Assembly (NCBI RefSeq): GCF_023273855.1
Contig: NZ_CP096884.1
Coordinates: 1-64,000, forward strand
Source: Seonamhaeicola sp. ML3
Lineage (GTDB): Bacteria; Bacteroidota; Bacteroidia; Flavobacteriales; Flavobacteriaceae
Length of the DNA: 64,000 nucleotides
Direction of reading: 5' to 3'
Shown: in pieces, positions 9,906-20,797 of the stretch
Layout: each line of letters starts with the position of its first letter
Position numbering within the stretch: position 1 is the stretch's first letter
The notes under the pieces: generated by a model
Seen by the model: only the letters and a program-made list of their open reading frames with translations
What the model was told of the DNA's origin: nothing
Database searches by the model: none
Position numbers and translations under genes: made by a program

Positions 9906-10004
9906 GCGGAATGTGAAATAAAAGGATTTCTTTTAAAACACGCCTTATAAATATAAATTTATAACTTAGTGCCGACCAAATACAACCCAAAAAAACCAAA
10001 AGCA

Positions 10005-10628
10005 ATGAATCCCTTAAAGCAATCTACCTCTATTTTTCTCTTTTTCTTAATTTCCTTTTCTTACTTAAATGCACAAGATAACATTCAATCTCAAAGCATT
10101 AACGACGGTTCGATAAATGATAAATTTGAATTCGTACTAAGAAAATCTGGGAATTTTAAAGGTACCAACGGACAGGCTTACGAAGCTGTAAAACGTAGTA
10201 TGTTTTTAAGCTTACAGCAACACACAAAAGACTCTATTAACACTCTAAAAAGTAAATTGTCTAATGCGAATTCTACAATTTCTAATCAAACTCAAGAAAT
10301 ATCTGAGCTAAAATCGAAACTCACAAATACCCAAAGTAGTTTAGACAAAACTAACCTTGAAAAAGACAGTATGGCGCTTTTTGGAATACAAATGAGTAAA
10401 GGTGGTTATAATTCACTTATGTGGATAATTATTGCTGGCTTGTTGGCGCTTTTAATTCTATTTATTTATAAATTCAAAAACAGTAATGCAGTAACCAAAC
10501 AGGCTAAACAAAACCTTGCCGAAATAGAGGAAGAATTCGATGAGCACAGAAGAGTAGCTTTAGAACGCGAGCAAAAAGTAAGACGCCAATTACAAGATGA
10601 GATTAATAAACAAAAAGGAGCTCAATAA
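10005..10628 (+). CDS. Exported coiled-coil protein with one membrane helix, function unknown
   Basis: 207 residues from the ATG at 10005; a GTG reading from 9969 would add twelve basic residues before the signal peptide and is less likely. Seen: signal peptide (FLFFLISFSYLNAQ), a short globular part, a long heptad-like coiled coil rich in Ser, Asn and Lys (about 75-120), one transmembrane helix (LMWIIIAGLLALLILFIY, about 144-161), and a second charged coiled coil ending in KQKGAQ. It would link periplasm and cytoplasm. I do not recognise the family. A perfect bidirectional terminator follows. Confidence 0.7.
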   Translation: MNPLKQSTSIFLFFLISFSYLNAQDNIQSQSINDGSINDKFEFVLRKSGNFKGTNGQAYEAVKRSMFLSLQQHTKDSINTLKSKLSNANSTISNQTQEISELKSKLTNTQSSLDKTNLEKDSMALFGIQMSKGGYNSLMWIIIAGLLALLILFIYKFKNSNAVTKQAKQNLAEIEEEFDEHRRVALEREQKVRRQLQDEINKQKGAQ

Positions 10629-10650: not shown

Positions 10651-10689
10651 AACACAAAAGCTGCAATTAAAAATTGCAGCTTTTGTGTT
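10651..10689. terminator. Bidirectional intrinsic terminator
   Basis: A perfect 18-base-pair inverted repeat (10651-10668 and 10672-10689) with a three-A loop, A-rich on one flank and T-rich on the other. It separates the plus-strand coiled-coil gene from the convergent CotH gene and can serve both. Confidence 0.9.
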
Positions 10690-10740
10690 TACTAAAATCA
10701 AATACTAATATTAATCGACAGATTTAACAAACTCTAACTT

Positions 10741-12237
10741 TTATTCATTACCTAAATAGCTATTCACTGCCGAGTTTCTTAGAGCAACATGCGAGTTTAG
10801 CGTATTTACAGCATTTTGAAAATCTGAACTAGTTTCTATAAACGTGTAGCCACTAATTTCTGAGTTAGCATATGGTTCAAGTAATGATGAATAATACGCA
10901 TATTGGGATTGGATATTACTTACACTAAAGACATTAGCAACTACCTGCTCTACATAAGTATCATACTTCGCTTTATAAACATCATCTTCATACAGGTACC
11001 CTATTAGCGGCCAACTGCTACCACTCAATTCTGAAAAATCTAACGATAAGGCTCCTCCCCTCTTTCCATCTTGTAATGCCTCATTATTATCCCAAGGAAT
11101 CCATGTTAACTTGTTATTATCTGGATTGCTATACAAGTAATAATTATGAGTCATCCTACCATAAGTATCCCAATTTTGAATAACGGTATTTACGGCTAAA
11201 TATTTAAGAAAGACATCCGTATCAAAAACAGCTTCAAGATTTGTTCTCCATGTTTCAGGGGCAGAGGTTCTTGTATTATCATGTAAAATCAAAAGTAAGT
11301 TTTGTACATCACTAAAATCTGCATCTTCCTCATTATTCTTTTTTTCATATTCGTCTACATCAAAAGTTCCATTAGCAAAACTTGCAGCATCACCATCTGG
11401 TTTATATAAATTTCCTTCATCACTTGAGAAGTTAGCATCTAATACGGTATTTTCAACGTCTTCAACCATGGTATAAACTCCAAAATAGGTCGGTCCATTA
11501 CCATAATCTATATATACCGTATAAAACGCAGTATGTGAAGCTGCCAATCCAAAATTTCTGAATGTATCTCCAGCTACTTTTTCCCTCAACATGGATTTAT
11601 CATCATAATTATTTTTGAGGTGTAATTTTTTAAACCCATAAAAACGTTGATTATCTATTTGCGGATAATCGTCCTCAAATTCATCAAAATCTAACTTAAA
11701 AGACAATTTTAAATTACCTCTTTGCCAAGTTGATTGTAAACTTGAATTCCCTTTAAACCGAACCCCAACACGATACCATTCCTTTCCATTATAAAAAACT
11801 TCTGCAGGAACAAACACCGGATCCTCATCGGTATCTATGAGTCCTCCTCCAGGCCCACCGCCCCCTGGGCCTCCTCCTCCAGGGCCTCCAGAACTTCCAC
11901 CTGAACCAAAACTACCATAAGTATCGGTCATGTCATTCAACATAATTTGCCAACGCTCTTCCGTGAAGACTATATCTATTCGTTTTACCACATTATCTGC
12001 AAAAACTTCGCTAAAGTTAGGTTCTGCATCTTTACCATGTGTTTCGGTAGTCCAGTCTGTAACTTCAAAATCTGTATCATTATTTACAACCTCTTCCTGT
12101 TCTTTTTCTTCTTGTTCTTCGTCATCAATAAATTCAACAGAAACATCATCATTATTACATGCATACAAGGTTATTAATGTGGCACTAAAAATTAATGCTG
12201 TAAAAAGCATTCCTAGGGGTTTTCTCTTACTTTTCAT
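10741..12237 (-). CDS. CotH-type kinase family lipoprotein
   Basis: 498 residues with a lipoprotein signal (LITLYAC, cysteine near 27). The CotH kinase domain is recognisable from GVRFKGNSSLQSTWQRG, KLHLKNNYDDKSMLREKVAGD, YFGVYTMVEDVE and IPWDNNEAL; the last carries the metal-binding Asp of these atypical protein kinases. Between the start of the domain and its core is a Gly/Pro-rich linker (about 110-135). In Bacillus, CotH phosphorylates spore coat proteins; the target here is unknown. It is the last gene of an operon with VTC, DUF4956 and DUF2490 genes, overlapping the latter by 11 bases. Confidence 0.88.
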   Translation of the reverse strand: MKSKRKPLGMLFTALIFSATLITLYACNNDDVSVEFIDDEEQEEKEQEEVVNNDTDFEVTDWTTETHGKDAEPNFSEVFADNVVKRIDIVFTEERWQIMLNDMTDTYGSFGSGGSSGGPGGGGPGGGGPGGGLIDTDEDPVFVPAEVFYNGKEWYRVGVRFKGNSSLQSTWQRGNLKLSFKLDFDEFEDDYPQIDNQRFYGFKKLHLKNNYDDKSMLREKVAGDTFRNFGLAASHTAFYTVYIDYGNGPTYFGVYTMVEDVENTVLDANFSSDEGNLYKPDGDAASFANGTFDVDEYEKKNNEEDADFSDVQNLLLILHDNTRTSAPETWRTNLEAVFDTDVFLKYLAVNTVIQNWDTYGRMTHNYYLYSNPDNNKLTWIPWDNNEALQDGKRGGALSLDFSELSGSSWPLIGYLYEDDVYKAKYDTYVEQVVANVFSVSNIQSQYAYYSSLLEPYANSEISGYTFIETSSDFQNAVNTLNSHVALRNSAVNSYLGNE

Positions 12238-12955
12238 GTTTATTGTTTTTAATTGTGTATGTATAATTTAAGCCTATAATCTTGGTTATTTCTGGAACAG
12301 AAACGTTTATTTCCTTTTCTATTCTATAGAATAGCCCAATGGTTCCAAATGATTTAAATTTGTATTCTGTTCCTAATGTTAACCGATACTTGCTAAACTC
12401 ATTTTCCCGGTCTACACCAAAGCTCCTAAATATTTCTGCCGAAAATTTGGGGTCTAATTTCCAATTGTTCACACCATACTCCAATGAAGTTTTAAATCGA
12501 AATTTCTGATTAGCGTAATCACCTTCTGAAGTACTTATACCTAATTCATTTTTGTTTTGATAACGTAGCCTATATTTAAGTGATAAATCGTTTATTTTAT
12601 GTTTGTAGGAGGCATCTAGATTAAATCTAAAATGATTTTCATAGCCTTGGATTTTCCCAACATTATCGTTTTCTTTTATATAACGAAATCCTGCCCCAAG
12701 CTTAAAACCCCTAAAAACAGTATATGAAGTACCGAAATCGGAAAAGTACTCACTAACCTCGGTTATATACTCTTTCATTCTAAGTTGCCCCTCTAGATTG
12801 AAAGCCCATTTTTTGTTGAGCTTAAACTTTAAATTGATTCCCGTCCAACTCTCTAAATCCCTAGTATCCTGGTTTTGAGAAAAAGCTAAAGATGTAAAAA
12901 GCAATGAAGCCATAACCATTAATAGGCACAAATGTTTTCTTCTTTTGTAAAACAT
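12227..12955 (-). CDS. DUF2490 family outer-membrane protein
   Basis: 242 residues with a signal peptide (LLMVMASLLFTSLAFSQ). The rest consists of alternating amphipathic strands with frequent aromatic ends (FRGFKLGAGFRYIKE, SLKYRLRYQNKNELG), typical of small beta-barrels, and matches DUF2490 in length and in the opening RDLESWTGINLKFKLNKKW. Function is unknown; a porin or scaffold role is inference. It lies between DUF4956 (13 bases upstream) and CotH (11-base overlap), so it probably supplies the outer-membrane part of the VTC/CotH system. Confidence 0.8.
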   Translation of the reverse strand: MFYKRRKHLCLLMVMASLLFTSLAFSQNQDTRDLESWTGINLKFKLNKKWAFNLEGQLRMKEYITEVSEYFSDFGTSYTVFRGFKLGAGFRYIKENDNVGKIQGYENHFRFNLDASYKHKINDLSLKYRLRYQNKNELGISTSEGDYANQKFRFKTSLEYGVNNWKLDPKFSAEIFRSFGVDRENEFSKYRLTLGTEYKFKSFGTIGLFYRIEKEINVSVPEITKIIGLNYTYTIKNNKHEK

Positions 12956-12968
12956 AACTTATATAGCT

Positions 12969-13574
12969 TTAGTTATTATTTTTAAAATAAAATATGGTTA
13001 CTTCTGCTGTGTCTTTTAAAAAGTCTACATTGCCAATGGTAATCTTATTGATACTTAAGCCGGTTCTATTCTCCAAATCGCTTTTTAGACTCTCATAGTT
13101 TTCGGGTTTTATATTTTCTATGTTTTCATAAATGACAGATTTAGATTCTTCTTGCTTTAGAGCCCAGTATTTTTCAATTGCTACTAGCACTGTAATTACC
13201 AATATATTGGCTGCAAAAATTTCTGCATAGCTCATTTTTTTATTTGCCAATGCATTAATTACCGATACACCTATGACAACAAACAGATAGGTCATTTCCT
13301 TAATATCAACAGGGTCGGTACGGTAACGAATTATTCCGAAAATGGCGAACAACCCTAGTGCCATTCCTATGTCTAATTCATATTTTTTAAGTGTAAAGCA
13401 CAAGAAAAATACAATAACACTTATAAGATAGTATGTAAACACATAGTCTTTGCGTTTGGAAACAGGATAGTATATAAACCTTATGATAAACGTTAAAAAC
13501 GTAAAGTTTATAATGAACCTAAACATCATTTTAAAAAAGTCGTCATCAAAGATGGGGATCTCTAAAAATTCCAT
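12969..13574 (-). CDS. DUF4956 family integral membrane protein
   Basis: 201 residues with about four transmembrane helices in the N-terminal two thirds, including the family hallmark GLFAIFGIIRYRTDPVDIKE (about 93-112) with its charged RYRT turn, and a soluble C-terminal alpha/beta domain (about 150-201). DUF4956 genes are repeatedly found beside VTC-domain polymerase and CotH genes in bacteria; the biochemical role is unknown. An inner-membrane transporter or partner of the polymerase is a reasonable inference. Gene spacing is 5 bases from VTC and 13 from DUF2490. Confidence 0.87.
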   Translation of the reverse strand: MEFLEIPIFDDDFFKMMFRFIINFTFLTFIIRFIYYPVSKRKDYVFTYYLISVIVFFLCFTLKKYELDIGMALGLFAIFGIIRYRTDPVDIKEMTYLFVVIGVSVINALANKKMSYAEIFAANILVITVLVAIEKYWALKQEESKSVIYENIENIKPENYESLKSDLENRTGLSINKITIGNVDFLKDTAEVTIFYFKNNN

Positions 13575-13579
13575 AGATA

Positions 13580-14329
13580 TTATGCTATTAATTTGTTTAT
13601 TCTTATTAGTTTTTCCTTAAATCTATTGTACTTTAATTCATTATAAATACTAATCATTCCAATACAATACTTACTAAACTTATAAGGGTTGATTTGTTTT
13701 AATTTTAATTGTTTTACCACAGAAGAACTTCTATTAAAACGTTCTTGTTTCACTTCAATAATCACTAAATTATTATAGGTTTTAAAAGAATTATTTACCT
13801 TAAAAGATAGATTTAGATCAATTGTTAATCGTTCTTTTGAATTTCTATTGATTAATGTAATTCTATTGAAGTCGTTCCAGATTACAGGTTCTAAATCAAA
13901 GTTTTTTTTGGTTGTATCTTGAATAAAATCTAATGCGGTATTGGATAAATTCGTTTCAAAATCATTAATAGGTATTCTCGTTTTTATAGTCTTACCTCTT
14001 CCGTCTTTTTGTTTAACCTCTAAAAAACATAAATCTGTTTCTACATACTTACGCATTCTAATCTTAGTTCTATTAACTTTTTGATTATGATGGTCATTAT
14101 AAAATTTCTTTGAGGGAGTATCAAAATACAATGAAGAATAGGTTAGCACTCTATGTCCTTTGATATCCAGTATTCTGTAATTATCTTTAATACTTAATAG
14201 AACATAGGCTAAATCCTTCTCATGAATTACGAATTTGGTATCTGTTCTTCTCATTAAAGACACCGTTTCCATCTCTTCTAATGAAATAGGTTTTAAATTA
14301 TCTATAATATTTACTAATTCTTGTTTCAT
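13580..14329 (-). CDS. VTC domain protein, putative polyphosphate polymerase
   Basis: 249 residues forming a triphosphate-tunnel (VTC) domain. Basic and acidic tunnel residues are visible in order: MRRTDTKFVI (about 26-35), YSSLYFDTP, RTKIRMRKYV, FLEVKQKDGRGKTIKTR (about 103-119), RLTIDLNLSF and NLVIIEVKQ (about 187-195). In yeast Vtc4 such a domain makes polyphosphate from ATP and feeds it through a membrane channel. Here the stand-alone domain is the first gene of an operon with membrane protein DUF4956, barrel DUF2490 and kinase CotH. Polyphosphate synthesis is inferred from the fold. Confidence 0.88.
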   Translation of the reverse strand: MKQELVNIIDNLKPISLEEMETVSLMRRTDTKFVIHEKDLAYVLLSIKDNYRILDIKGHRVLTYSSLYFDTPSKKFYNDHHNQKVNRTKIRMRKYVETDLCFLEVKQKDGRGKTIKTRIPINDFETNLSNTALDFIQDTTKKNFDLEPVIWNDFNRITLINRNSKERLTIDLNLSFKVNNSFKTYNNLVIIEVKQERFNRSSSVVKQLKLKQINPYKFSKYCIGMISIYNELKYNRFKEKLIRINKLIA

Positions 14330-14704
14330 AACCTTGATAAATCCCTCTACTTAAATATGGGTTGAGATTGTTTTACATCTTTACTGGATTGATTTTTAAC
14401 AATAACAGATAGAGAATCTTTAAATCTTACTTGATTTAACCGATTAATTTTTTAATAGAATTTTTAAAAACCAACTAAAAACATCACTTATGGGCACAAC
14501 TTAAAAATGACAACTTTCATTCTATTTATTTTTGGTATTTAGACTCCGAATTTATTTTTTGGTTCAATGTGCAATAGTGGTTATCTGTGAATGACTACTC
14601 CTTTTCTGTGAACCCTACTTTTTGTTCAGTTATTGGTTTTATTCATACACCTTTTTAGCTCGTTTTCAAATAATTGTTGATTTATTTTTCCGTTACTTTG
14701 TGAT
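14330..14704. other. 375-base divergent intergenic region, VTC operon / LytS gene
   Basis: No ORF or RNA gene. It holds two near-identical direct repeats (14581 and 14602), two TTTATTTTTGGT-like repeats 26-27 bases apart (14525 and 14551), and a weak TTG-N17-TACTTTG element (14674-14700) directly before the LytS ATG. No TAnnTTTG match was found for the VTC side, which may mean that promoter needs an activator. Confidence 0.6.
14581..14612. promoter_or_regulatory. Direct repeats of LytTR-operator type
   Basis: TTATCTGTGAA (14581-14591) and TTTTCTGTGAA (14602-14612) match in 10 of 11 bases and are spaced exactly 21 bases, the two-turn spacing used by LytTR regulators such as AgrA. The reverse strand reads TTCACAGA followed by A/T, resembling the ACAGTTAAG core. 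They lie between the LytTR two-component genes and the VTC operon. Confidence 0.5.
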
Positions 14705-15736
14705 ATGAACAAACTTAAAAGGCTAGTTGTTCAAGTTGTTTTGTGGCTGGCCATAGGCATAATAATTTGGTTGTATCAAGAAAAACCAACAGAAGCACTT
14801 AAAGAGAATTTAGTCATTCTCTTCTTTCAATTTTTTCTTATTAGTAGTTTAATCTTTTATGCATCATCAAACTTTTTACAAAAGAAGAAATATGTAGTTT
14901 TCTCAGTTTTTTCAATAATGCTTTTGTTTTTTTCAGCCTGGGTATTGTCTTCTGTTTATCCAATGATTACAGTAAGGCCTCACCACGTTAATCTCCCAGA
15001 ATTTGGCCCACCTCCACCTCCAAGGATGAAAAGACCCCCTTCTCATTTCCTACTTCATACCTTAATTTTAATCATAACTTATACTTCTTCTACTATTATT
15101 GAAGTATTCAATTATTTAATTAAAAGAGAAAAAGAGGTCATATTAGCTAAAAACGCTAATCTGCAAAATGAACTAAAACTATTGAAATCACAGATTAACC
15201 CTCATTTTCTATTTAATGCTTTAAATAATATTTATGCACTTTCTACCATAGATTCCAACAAAACACAACAAAGTATTAGCTATTTGTCAGACATGCTACG
15301 CTATGTGCTGTACGAATGCGAGAACGAACTTGTTCCTATTAAAAAAGAGATAGAGTATATTGAGAATTACTTAAAACTATTTGCTTTAAAGAGCAGTAAA
15401 ACCTATCCAATAAAAACCAAATTCCATATAGAAAATAATTTAACCATTGCCCCTATGTTATTTATTCCTTTTATTGAAAATGCCCTAAAACATGGTAATA
15501 TTGAAAAAATGAAGGAATCATTTATCAACATTAATATTGTTACTAAAAAAAATAATATAATTTTTGAAGTTGAAAATAGCATCCCTAAAACAGATATTAA
15601 TAAGGATGACATGGGTGGTATTGGTATAGAAAACGTGAAAAAACGATTAGCAATATTGTATCCTCAAAAACATAATCTTTTAATTTCTCAAAATAAACAT
15701 AGCTTTAAAGTTCAACTAAACCTTGACCTTACATGA
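14705..15736 (+). CDS. LytS-type sensor histidine kinase
   Basis: 343 residues. Four N-terminal membrane helices (about 7-25, 32-53, 60-83, 113-135) with a proline-rich loop (FGPPPPPRMKRPP, about 100-112) between helices 3 and 4, then a short coiled coil and the His_kinase domain of the LytS/YehU class. The phospho-acceptor His lies in QINPHFLFNALNNIY (about 164-178); an ATP-lid N box is seen at FIENALKHG. It has no PAS or other sensor domain beyond the membrane part. Its stop overlaps the ATG of the response regulator (ATGA). Confidence 0.93.
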   Translation: MNKLKRLVVQVVLWLAIGIIIWLYQEKPTEALKENLVILFFQFFLISSLIFYASSNFLQKKKYVVFSVFSIMLLFFSAWVLSSVYPMITVRPHHVNLPEFGPPPPPRMKRPPSHFLLHTLILIITYTSSTIIEVFNYLIKREKEVILAKNANLQNELKLLKSQINPHFLFNALNNIYALSTIDSNKTQQSISYLSDMLRYVLYECENELVPIKKEIEYIENYLKLFALKSSKTYPIKTKFHIENNLTIAPMLFIPFIENALKHGNIEKMKESFININIVTKKNNIIFEVENSIPKTDINKDDMGGIGIENVKKRLAILYPQKHNLLISQNKHSFKVQLNLDLT

Positions 15737-16404
15737 AATATTTAAAATGCTTAGTTGTTGATGATGAGGAATTAGCAAGGACTTTGCTAAAAACATACAT
15801 TGATAAAATAGATTTTTTAGAATTGGTTGACTCCTTTGAAAACCCTGTTGAAGCTTTTTCTGTGTTAAAGGAAAAATCTATTGATATTATCTTTTTAGAT
15901 ATTCAAATGCCAGAATTAAAAGGTACAGATTTTGCTAAAATGATAAACCCTGAAACCAAAATTATTTTCACAACAGCCTATTCTGAATATGCCTTGGAAG
16001 GTTTTGATTTAAATGCCCTGGATTATCTATTAAAACCTATAACGTTTCAACGCTTTTTACAAGCTGTAAACAAAATAAAACCTGAGATTATTAATTCAGA
16101 AGATTACATTACCATTAAATCTGGTTACGATTTACATAAACTAAAATATACAGATATACTTTTTATTGAAAGTGATAATGAATATGTGGTGTTTAATACT
16201 TCTGAAAGAAAAATCATGAGCCATCAAACATTAAAATCTTTAGAAGAAAGCTTACCTGAATCCATGTTTATGCGTGTGCATCGTTCGTACATAGTAAACA
16301 AGGAAAAAGTAGCTGCTTTAAAAGGAAAAAACTTAGTGGTTACAAACACGAAAATACCAATAAGTGATAGCTACTATGACAAGGTAAAAAAAAACCTGTT
16401 TTAA
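15733..16404 (+). CDS. LytTR family response regulator
   Basis: 223 residues: receiver domain with acidic pocket VVDDEE (about 8-13), phospho-acceptor Asp in FLDIQMPE (about 56), Thr in TTAYSEYALEGF and Lys in LLKPI; then a C-terminal LytTR DNA-binding domain (about 125-223) with SDNEYVVF and the diagnostic MRVHRSYIVNKEKV. It is the partner of the overlapping LytS kinase. Likely targets are its own promoter and the divergent VTC/DUF4956/DUF2490/CotH operon, because 21-bp direct repeats lie between them. No ligand can be inferred. Confidence 0.94.
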   Translation: MKYLKCLVVDDEELARTLLKTYIDKIDFLELVDSFENPVEAFSVLKEKSIDIIFLDIQMPELKGTDFAKMINPETKIIFTTAYSEYALEGFDLNALDYLLKPITFQRFLQAVNKIKPEIINSEDYITIKSGYDLHKLKYTDILFIESDNEYVVFNTSERKIMSHQTLKSLEESLPESMFMRVHRSYIVNKEKVAALKGKNLVVTNTKIPISDSYYDKVKKNLF

Positions 16405-18019: not shown

Positions 18020-20797
18020 CTAACGCCTACGCATACCGCCACCAAATCGTCTTCCGCCACCCATTCTACCACCTTGACCTAATCCTTTTGGTCTTTTGTT
18101 CATATTTTGACCGGCAATCCTACCAAATTTAAAAACAAAAGTAACCATGAAATACTGTTCTAAAATCTTATCTTCCACGTCTTGGATATACGTCCCTGTC
18201 ACAGTTCTTCTAAAACCATTGTTCTGGCCTAAAACATCGTAACCAACTAAGGTAAGCGTACCTTTATCTCCCCATAATTGAACACCTAATCCTGCGTTCC
18301 AAAAAACGGCATCGCCATCAAACTCATCACCAACTCTACTATTGTATCTGTATCCTATTTTGTTAGAGAAAAAGGCATTCTTTAAAAAGAAAATAGAGGC
18401 ATCGACATTTAAATTTTGAATAAAAAAGTCGTTATCGTCAAACATATCGGTATCAAATTCATTCTTATTTTTAGAGTAGCTGTAGGTAGCGCTTAAATCT
18501 AATTTGTTGTCATAAGAATACCGGAATGAAAAAGAGGGTCTTAATGTTGTATTTTTGGAAACAAACCTGATGGCATTCTGAAGAGAAACATTGTTTCTAT
18601 ACGATGCAAAAAATCTGAAGTTAAAATTTAGATTCGTCTTTTTATCGAAATAAGACTTAGATACTGCCGTATTACCATTTACCGAATAATCTCCATTTAG
18701 GTTAACATAGGTCGTATTTCTAATTAAATCTTCATTGGTAACGGTTGAATTTACAATTTTATCCTCAATGAACTGAGCACGTACATTTCCAGTAACATTA
18801 ATATTATGATAAGCCAAATTATTTTGATATTCAAAAGCTAAGATGTGATTAACTTCAGGCTCCAAAAAAGGATTTCCTATTCTTGTATTAATTTGGTTGC
18901 TTACATCTTCAACAGGTTGCAGTTGAGATGCTGAAGGTAAATCGACATTTTGTCGGTAATTTAGAGACACATTCTTGTACCCATTTTTATCACGGTATCG
19001 CAACCTTCCGGAATAGGTGAAATATTCAAAATCGGCATTAAAATTTCGCGCTGGTATTAATTCGTCTTTATACTTTCTATATGTGTTTGTATATGCCCCT
19101 TCTATTTCAAAACGAAAGTCTTTATAATCGTATCTTAACCTTAATGCGGGTTTCACTGTAGTGGTAACATATCGGCTATCAAAACTTTGTAAATCATTAA
19201 AGTCGGTAAAATCGTTATCTACTTCGTTAAAATCGAAAACATACTTTTCGTTATTGTTATGGTTTATATTAGCATTATACTTTGGGATTATTCTAAAGTT
19301 TTGAAATAATTCCTTAAACCACATACCATTAAAATTGATGTTAGCATTGGTGTTTTCGGTAGATCTTATTTGATTCTGAATACGGGTTCTATTTCTTTCG
19401 TATAGGATGTTTTCTGAAAAATTCTCAGAATCGGTATTAGACTCGGTAAAATTTGTACTTAAATTCAACGTAAAGAAATCTGTACCTTTCCCCGTTCTCG
19501 ATATTATACCAATCCTGTTTTTAATTTCACGATTAGTAGAAGTAGATTGGTTCTTGGAATTAACATCGCTTATTAAATCGCCATCGATAGACTTCGAACT
19601 GGTAGTAGACTCTGAAAAGGCATTGGAATTACTGGAGTTAAAATCAACTTCATTAGAAAGCTGAACTCTACTATTTGATAGTTTGTTCTTGGGATTTATC
19701 ACATATTTCAAATCGAAATTACCAATATGAGTATCGGTATCTCTAAAGCTTTCACTTTCTGTTTTGGAGATGTAATTTAAATTGGGGAGAAAGTTTTCTC
19801 GTTCCCTTCTCTGGGCATTATCTACATTATTCGAATTAAAACGGTAATTACCATTTACTCTTGTTTCATTCCATTTTCCTTTGGTGTAATTAGCACCCAC
19901 AAAGTCAGATTCTATAGCACCAACACTAGATTTTGCATCTGGCAACGCATTAAAACCTCTTCGCATGTTTATATTGTTAGTACCAGAAATAAGACCAATT
20001 TGCTTCCCATCAATCAGTTTAAACAGATTAGCATTTACCTGATACTTTTCATCTGTTCCGTAGCCTGCATTTATATCCCCAAAAAAAGCCGTGTTTTTGC
20101 CTTTCTTAATTTTTAGATTTATCTCTTTTGTACCAGAATCAGATTCTTCACCAGTAAACTTCTGCATATTGGTTTTGTAGTCTGTAACTTGAACTTTACT
20201 AATAACATTACTAGGTAAGTTTTTTAAGGCTATATCTCCATTTTTCTCTCCAAAAAAGCGCATACCGTCAACATTTATGGCTTCAACATCCACGCCATTA
20301 ACCGTAATGTTACCATCTACATCTATTTCAAAACCAGGGAGCTTTTTTAGCAGGTCTTCTGCCCTATCGTTTGGTAAGGTTTTAAAACTATCCGCATTAA
20401 ATTCTATGGTATCTGTTTTAATTACTATAGGTGGAGCTTTTGCAGTTATGGAAACCGTATTTAATTGCTCAACAGATTCCTCTAAGGTAATAACCCCTAA
20501 ATCCAATACATCGGTCTTTGGCACCGTTATAACTTTAGTGAATGGTTTATACCCTAAATACCCAACATTTAAAATTAAGGATTGGTCGTTATCTGCATTA
20601 ACTTTTATGGAGAATTGGCCTTCTTTATTGGTTATACCATAAGCTATTACCAAACTATCTTTAGCCGCTTGAAGAAACACTGTTGCTGCTTCTAGCTTAT
20701 ACGTATTTGTATCTTTTACAATACCCTCTAGCGTAAACTTTTGGGCGAACAATGAAACCGTAAACAAAAGAAATACGATACAAGTTTTAGTTTTCAA
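18020..20797 (-). CDS. TonB-receptor-like outer-membrane beta-barrel protein
   Basis: 925 residues: signal peptide (FLLFTVSLFAQ), an N-terminal carboxypeptidase-regulatory-like domain (about 20-110), a plug-like region (DRAEDLLKKLPGFEIDVDGNI, about 145-165) and a long barrel of the OMP_b-brl_3 type with many N/T/S-rich strands. No TonB box is obvious. The last barrel strand (YFMVTFVFKFG) is followed by about 35 residues rich in Gly, Arg and Met, an unusual basic tail beyond the barrel. Substrate unknown; no SusD-like partner adjoins. It stands alone, 89 bases from guaB. Confidence 0.87.
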   Translation of the reverse strand: MKTKTCIVFLLFTVSLFAQKFTLEGIVKDTNTYKLEAATVFLQAAKDSLVIAYGITNKEGQFSIKVNADNDQSLILNVGYLGYKPFTKVITVPKTDVLDLGVITLEESVEQLNTVSITAKAPPIVIKTDTIEFNADSFKTLPNDRAEDLLKKLPGFEIDVDGNITVNGVDVEAINVDGMRFFGEKNGDIALKNLPSNVISKVQVTDYKTNMQKFTGEESDSGTKEINLKIKKGKNTAFFGDINAGYGTDEKYQVNANLFKLIDGKQIGLISGTNNINMRRGFNALPDAKSSVGAIESDFVGANYTKGKWNETRVNGNYRFNSNNVDNAQRRERENFLPNLNYISKTESESFRDTDTHIGNFDLKYVINPKNKLSNSRVQLSNEVDFNSSNSNAFSESTTSSKSIDGDLISDVNSKNQSTSTNREIKNRIGIISRTGKGTDFFTLNLSTNFTESNTDSENFSENILYERNRTRIQNQIRSTENTNANINFNGMWFKELFQNFRIIPKYNANINHNNNEKYVFDFNEVDNDFTDFNDLQSFDSRYVTTTVKPALRLRYDYKDFRFEIEGAYTNTYRKYKDELIPARNFNADFEYFTYSGRLRYRDKNGYKNVSLNYRQNVDLPSASQLQPVEDVSNQINTRIGNPFLEPEVNHILAFEYQNNLAYHNINVTGNVRAQFIEDKIVNSTVTNEDLIRNTTYVNLNGDYSVNGNTAVSKSYFDKKTNLNFNFRFFASYRNNVSLQNAIRFVSKNTTLRPSFSFRYSYDNKLDLSATYSYSKNKNEFDTDMFDDNDFFIQNLNVDASIFFLKNAFFSNKIGYRYNSRVGDEFDGDAVFWNAGLGVQLWGDKGTLTLVGYDVLGQNNGFRRTVTGTYIQDVEDKILEQYFMVTFVFKFGRIAGQNMNKRPKGLGQGGRMGGGRRFGGGMRRR

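Follow-up and report, generated by a model that had tools for sequence, protein, structure and literature searches.

A four-gene operon of Seonamhaeicola sp. ML3 as a possible unit for phosphate-polymer synthesis and export joined to a surface CotH kinase

The window analysed here, the 64,000 nucleotides at positions 1 to 64,000 of contig NZ_CP096884.1 of Seonamhaeicola sp. ML3, contains an operon of VTC, DUF4956, DUF2490 and CotH genes divergent from a LytS-type kinase and a LytTR regulator. Judged from sequence and gene neighbourhood comparison, the chances are about even that this operon is a trans-envelope unit which makes and exports a phosphate polymer and is joined to a surface kinase. 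In the cytoplasm the VTC protein would polymerise ATP phosphate, and the DUF4956 protein would bind this polymerase and thread the chain across the inner membrane; together they would be the prokaryotic equivalent, in two proteins, of the yeast VTC complex. The chain would cross the outer membrane through the DUF2490 barrel. The targets of the CotH lipoprotein, on the surface or secreted, would probably be acidic and EF-hand calcium-binding proteins. The exported polymer would supply local phosphate and calcium-binding charge, and the unit would be controlled by a two-component switch linked to calcium-binding (EF-hand) proteins.

All six genes are assigned by Pfam to the expected families, and their coordinates and gaps agree with the sequence-only reading, which had described four tight minus-strand genes divergent from the regulatory pair. 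VTC and DUF4956 are separated by 5 bp, DUF4956 and DUF2490 by 13 bp, and DUF2490 and CotH overlap by 11 bp, a spacing that points to one transcript. The kinase and regulator genes overlap by 4 bp on the plus strand and form a single operon, and a 375 bp intergenic promoter region (14330-14704) separates the two divergent units. The source genome is a complete single contig of 3.47 Mb with one copy of CotH. A separate PPK1 is encoded elsewhere in it, so ordinary internal polyphosphate does not need the VTC operon. An NCBIfam scan gave none of the four operon genes an informative name.

The VTC gene (13580-14329, minus strand) encodes a predicted cytoplasmic polyphosphate polymerase of the triphosphate-tunnel type. 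The VTC domain (PF09359, E=2.8e-32; 112.6 bits over profile positions 2-234 of 235) stands alone in its 249 aa without SPX or a fused membrane domain, the membrane part being a separate gene. The tunnel residues K32, R91, R93, E104, K106, K116, R118, R156, R167, E192 and K220 are invariant in 48 homologues. A phmmer search of the PDB with the sequence found nothing; only a profile search reached the yeast Vtc2 and Vtc4 structures, with weak matches in which the RxR and ExK motifs align. No hydrolase-type CYTH match appeared for this protein. In Vtc4, R264, R266 and E426 serve as an inactivating triple (PMC9911596). The predicted active-site residues fit a polyphosphate polymerase.

VTC and DUF4956 occur as a pair. 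Among 148 genomes drawn evenly from the phylum, 29 carry VTC and all 29 also carry DUF4956. A same-strand DUF4956 lies on the same contig for 32 of the 33 VTC hits, at 125-265 bp in 30 cases and about 2.8 kb off in two, and the one hit that lacks this partner is a fragment. The same three of 14 named control genomes carry both genes (Bacteroides ihuae, C. glutamicum and the archaeon M. acetivorans); the pair is therefore not tied to one envelope type. CotH is found in two of these three and in B. subtilis. In 19 loci (L096:8479-8895, L139:8077-8832, L142:8852-9238 and 16 more), every one of them with DUF2490, the gene of a small conserved lipoprotein comes immediately before VTC. The lipoprotein has one or two copies of a domain marked by the motifs C..EGEGG.S.I.G and VYIIYGD; it has no Pfam family above the cut-off and may be a component of the export unit in the outer membrane.

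DUF4956 (12969-13574, minus strand; 201 aa; PF16316, E=4.8e-54) is the candidate inner-membrane translocator. An AlphaFold2 model (pLDDT 80) has five predicted helices and a C-terminal soluble domain, which by the positive-inside rule would be cytoplasmic, on the same side as VTC. The basic residues R19, R32, R83, R85 and K92 are nearly invariant. A conserved gene string holding DUF4956 without VTC was seen in three loci (L051, L062 and L063); in L062 its order is DUF6580, DUF4956, HlyD-like adaptor, a 412-aa protein without a family and a short-chain dehydrogenase.

The envelope partners of DUF4956 were compared in about 115 annotated neighbourhoods. DUF4956 is accompanied by DUF2490 in 53 of 114 loci and by an HlyD-like adaptor in 19, and no locus has both where 8.8 would be expected to. 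The adaptors were identified by Pfam HlyD_3 and Biotin_lipoyl matches and by a 98.5% profile-profile match between the two adaptor clusters; one adaptor locus additionally has a TolC-type outer-membrane efflux protein (OEP). Such interchangeable outer parts imply that something exits the cell through DUF4956. The route proposed from the sequence, through DUF4956 and then an outer-membrane barrel, is supported by this replacement of DUF2490 in other lineages and by the basic residues of the predicted barrel lumen. Genes for LpxK, PNP, GatB, thioredoxin and cytidine deaminase also recur beside the loci of Crocinitomicaceae; they look like ordinary housekeeping genes and were set aside as parts of the module.

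DUF2490 (12227-12955, minus strand; 242 aa; PF10677, E=7.8e-23) is the candidate polyanion pore. Its model (pLDDT 89) is an outer-membrane barrel nearest to the anionic-oligosaccharide porins KdgM, NanC and VhGalP, with Z 15.6-16.0 over 156-178 residues and about 10-12% identity for KdgM and NanC; Pfam gives DUF2490 and a sub-threshold Phenol_MetA_deg match only. The basic lumen residues R59, R91, R110, R129, R131, R153, K155, K189 and R191 lie on the hydrophilic face, and R59, R110, R129, R131, R153 and R191 are also kept in paralogues elsewhere in the genomes. In contrast, R91 is present in 41/41 operon-linked copies and 0/20 paralogues, and position 155 is basic in 39/41 and 4/20, respectively. 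On the aligned sequences, R91 and K155 mark an operon-linked DUF2490 subfamily; such markers are expected by descent, and it is the basic nature of several of them that is informative.

The CotH gene (10741-12237, minus strand) encodes a 498-aa kinase-family lipoprotein (PF08757, E=2.3e-71) with a Gly-rich insert at about residues 107-133. It matches the solved CotH 5jd9 by profile (E=1.1e-22), and the catalytic Asp positions are kept: D357 of QNWD and D383 of PWD align with the Asp pair of 5jd9, 23 residues apart. They are the equivalents of the CotH residues D228 and D251. The lipobox Cys27 is invariant among homologues, and the acidic residues that follow it presumably direct surface export by the Bacteroidota rule. 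The protein is predicted to lie outside the cytoplasm, on the cell surface. In CotH of Bacillus, the D228Q mutant is inactive (PMC7821199).

CotH goes together with an envelope partner: it is present in 27/62 VTC loci that have such a partner and in 2/38 that do not, as counted by an in-house profile that may miss divergent CotH genes. Many other loci of Bacteroidota have the gene order VTC-DUF4956-DUF2490-CotH, and in many genera DUF2490 is followed by a CotH gene that overlaps or abuts it; VTC-DUF4956-DUF2490 often occurs without CotH. A Bacteroidales locus (L055:6957-12402) has a CotH very near that of the window (phmmer E=3e-158), beside DUF4956, an adaptor, a TolC-type OEP, VTC and a lamin-tail-domain protein, and this likeness suggests a transfer between orders.

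The divergent pair consists of a LytS-type membrane histidine kinase (14705-15736, plus strand; 343 aa; PF06580, E=9.7e-24) with a proline-rich extracytoplasmic loop and a LytTR response regulator (15733-16404, plus strand; 223 aa; Response_reg E=2e-22, LytTR E=1e-21). Orthologues of the kinase occur in 26/397 genomes of the family, that of the window included, and a LytTR partner 58-78% identical stands beside each of the 24 orthologues read out. The regulator comparison covered 26 loci, namely these 24, the congener G151 and the window. In 20/26 the pair diverges from a small secreted protein with two EF-hands, and CotH is close in 7/26. VTC-DUF4956-DUF2490-CotH fills the divergent slot itself in the window and in genome G476 (L266).

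A conserved direct repeat, RTTYAYNGA-N12-RTTYAYNGA, lies upstream of the orthologous kinase genes and faces EF-hand, CotH or VTC genes. The mean best score is 14.46 of 16 at a period of 21, and the remaining periods of the range 15-27 all give 11.1-12.3; scores of at least 15 occur in 12 loci at period 21, and in none at other periods or on the opposite strand (periods 20-22). In all but at most three loci, the distance between the kinase start and the beginning of the repeat is 70, 90 or 91 bp. A few of the scored loci served to define the consensus, so that their scores partly follow from it; for the remaining loci the contrasts in period and position do not. For the same reason, a stricter form of the repeat has two perfect matches in seven genomes of the genus, both at the defining loci. 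An extra site with one mismatch, which was not used in defining the pattern, is found directly upstream of cotH in G151. A one-mismatch match at 1.569 Mb in the genome is inside a coding frame and was judged to be due to chance.

In the window the candidate operator, GTTCACAGA-N12-ATTCACAGA (14584-14613, minus strand), points toward the VTC operon with a direct-repeat period of 21 bp. LytTR operators consist of repeats of 9-11 nt with 11-13 nt between them (PMC4847170), dimensions that are usual for regulators of this class (PMC4847170, PMC6193735). The 9-12-9 geometry of the window is within this rule. A promoter scan found fewer sites than in shuffled sequence. The repeat supports a tie of the VTC operon to the divergent pair through a putative LytTR operator. 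The sequence-only reading had based that tie on adjacency; the conserved operator strengthens it, although most loci with the four genes lack the pair. The comparison supports the co-occurrence of VTC, DUF4956, DUF2490 and CotH across Bacteroidota. A different LytS-LytTR pair lies downstream of CotH in a Lutibacter locus (L070), and in four others (L068, L069, L214 and L218) EF-hand proteins flank the four-gene operon with no pair of the window type adjacent.

The cassettes beside the pairs of this LytS-LytTR clade (L265-L288 and L234) are varied and include EF-hand alone, EF-hand with YHYH, MORN and SCO1, and EF-hand with Fer4, ferric reductase, flavoprotein and CotH. They may share a signal, possibly calcium or another metal. 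The alternative offered by the sequence-only reading, that polymer and protein phosphorylation may serve a common surface modification, is strengthened by the EF-hand and YHYH genes under the same regulator. As a whole, that reading is partly supported.

These cassettes also favour a rival which is unlikely but has to be taken seriously, in which the island holds two functions that have a promoter in common but not a pathway: VTC-DUF4956-DUF2490 would be an exporter, and CotH with LytS-LytTR an independent EF-hand/CotH system for surface phosphoproteins. Most of the orthologous pairs have EF-hand, YHYH or CotH genes beside them and no VTC, the congener G151 has the pair and a 73% identical CotH without a DUF4956 of the window type, and CotH is often missing beside VTC-DUF4956-DUF2490. 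However, DUF2490 and CotH overlap or abut in many genera and CotH is commoner where there is an envelope partner, which argues against two separate functions.

Polyphosphate synthesised by VTC and exported by DUF4956-DUF2490 could itself be the phosphate donor with which extracellular CotH phosphorylates secreted EF-hand proteins, the surface being free of ATP. This idea is speculative and improbable as it stands.

A module that modifies or regulates a surface polysaccharide, with CotH and the phosphate polymer acting on exopolysaccharide as proposed beside Gram-positive pel operons, is also improbable. In streptococci, clostridia and bifidobacteria, pelDEADAFG has VTC, DUF4956 and CotH as accessory genes (PMC7112168), a glycosyltransferase lies in the VTC-CotH locus of C. 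perfringens (PMC2879425), and KdgM and NanC are porins for acidic sugars. Against this, no glycosyltransferase family is found among the annotated recurrent neighbour clusters of the Bacteroidota loci, in which not every neighbour was scanned. Uptake and breakdown, in which DUF2490 and DUF4956 would import polyphosphate or another polyanion for hydrolysis by the VTC-fold protein, is very unlikely: triphosphate-tunnel folds include hydrolases, and porins of the KdgM/NanC kind, which the barrel resembles, import, but the protein belongs to the polymerase family PF09359 with no hydrolase-type CYTH match, and the adaptor and TolC partners of other lineages point to export.

Several observations weigh against an export unit joined to a surface kinase. 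In 38 VTC-DUF4956 loci no partner for the outer membrane was recognised close by, and in some other loci DUF4956 adjoins an adaptor without VTC; DUF4956 may therefore move other things and may serve other exports too. A fold search of the PDB with the DUF4956 model gave no match above noise and no recognisable transporter fold. The DUF2490 loci are mostly from Flavobacteriales and relatives and the adaptor loci mostly from other classes, and phylogeny is a partial confounder of the mutual exclusivity, the extra basic residues and the CotH enrichment. The distribution of the four genes is patchy, with a DUF4956 of the window type in 1/7 genomes of the genus. Since the kinase-regulator pair usually accompanies EF-hand/YHYH genes without VTC, the VTC operon may have joined the regulon recently.

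The island has a GC content of 30.7%, compared with 33.5% for the window. In two of six congeners (G148 and G152) the site is empty, and the orthologue of the flanking 219-aa gene (9969-10628) directly adjoins IMPDH. By direct sequence comparison, the hairpin after this gene (10652-10690), at the left edge of the inserted block, is common to G148. The block from 10.7 to 16.4 kb, including the regulator pair, therefore appears to have been gained or lost as one. Just past IMPDH, at 18020-20797, is a large OMP_b-brl_3 barrel with a Gly/Arg-rich C-terminal tail; it apparently belongs to the older neighbourhood, as G149 and G151 have an orthologous end next to IMPDH.

The VTC-DUF4956-CotH neighbourhood is already known, having been named beside pel operons in 2020 with a hypothesis only (PMC7112168), and the earlier statement that such neighbourhoods have no described function holds for the literature searched. 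That literature holds only passing mentions of bacterial VTC or DUF4956 function, and a search of it turned up no report of the envelope-partner switch, the basic pore signature or the EF-hand/CotH regulon. Nor did it yield a described bacterial polyphosphate exporter or an answer to the phosphate supply of kinases outside bacterial cells. If the proposed export is true, the operon would be a bacterial way of placing polyphosphate outside the cell, for which no paper was found. If VTC-DUF4956 is a two-gene version of eukaryotic VTC, it would be a simple system in which to study how polyphosphate synthesis and translocation are coupled. Through the conserved LytTR operator, the operon might be induced and its signal sought.

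The unit has parallels with several known systems. Like the HlyD/TolC tripartite exporters, Bacteroidales loci have adaptor and OEP genes beside DUF4956; no ABC, RND or MFS pump is recognised among the flanking proteins, which are partly annotated, and DUF4956 is in the pump's place. DUF2490 resembles the anionic-oligosaccharide porins KdgM and NanC in its 12-strand-type barrel fold and basic lumen but has no detectable sequence family match to them, about 10-12% identity and another context. The window CotH is of the same family as the Bacillus spore-coat kinase and keeps its catalytic Asp positions (D228, PMC7821199), but it is a predicted extracytoplasmic lipoprotein with a Gly-rich insert in a non-spore context. 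The cotH-PPP-DUF4956 cluster of Gram-positive pel operons has the same three families, contiguous (PMC7112168), together with pel genes and DUF4832 and without an outer-membrane part, whereas the window has DUF2490 and the LytS-LytTR pair and no pel genes were seen in it. The yeast VTC complex (Vtc4/Vtc3/Vtc1) likewise combines a cytoplasmic tunnel-fold polymerase bearing RxR and ExK motifs with a membrane channel, to which it is coupled (PMC9911596); in the window SPX is missing, the membrane part is the separate DUF4956 gene, and a candidate pore for the second membrane and a kinase are added.

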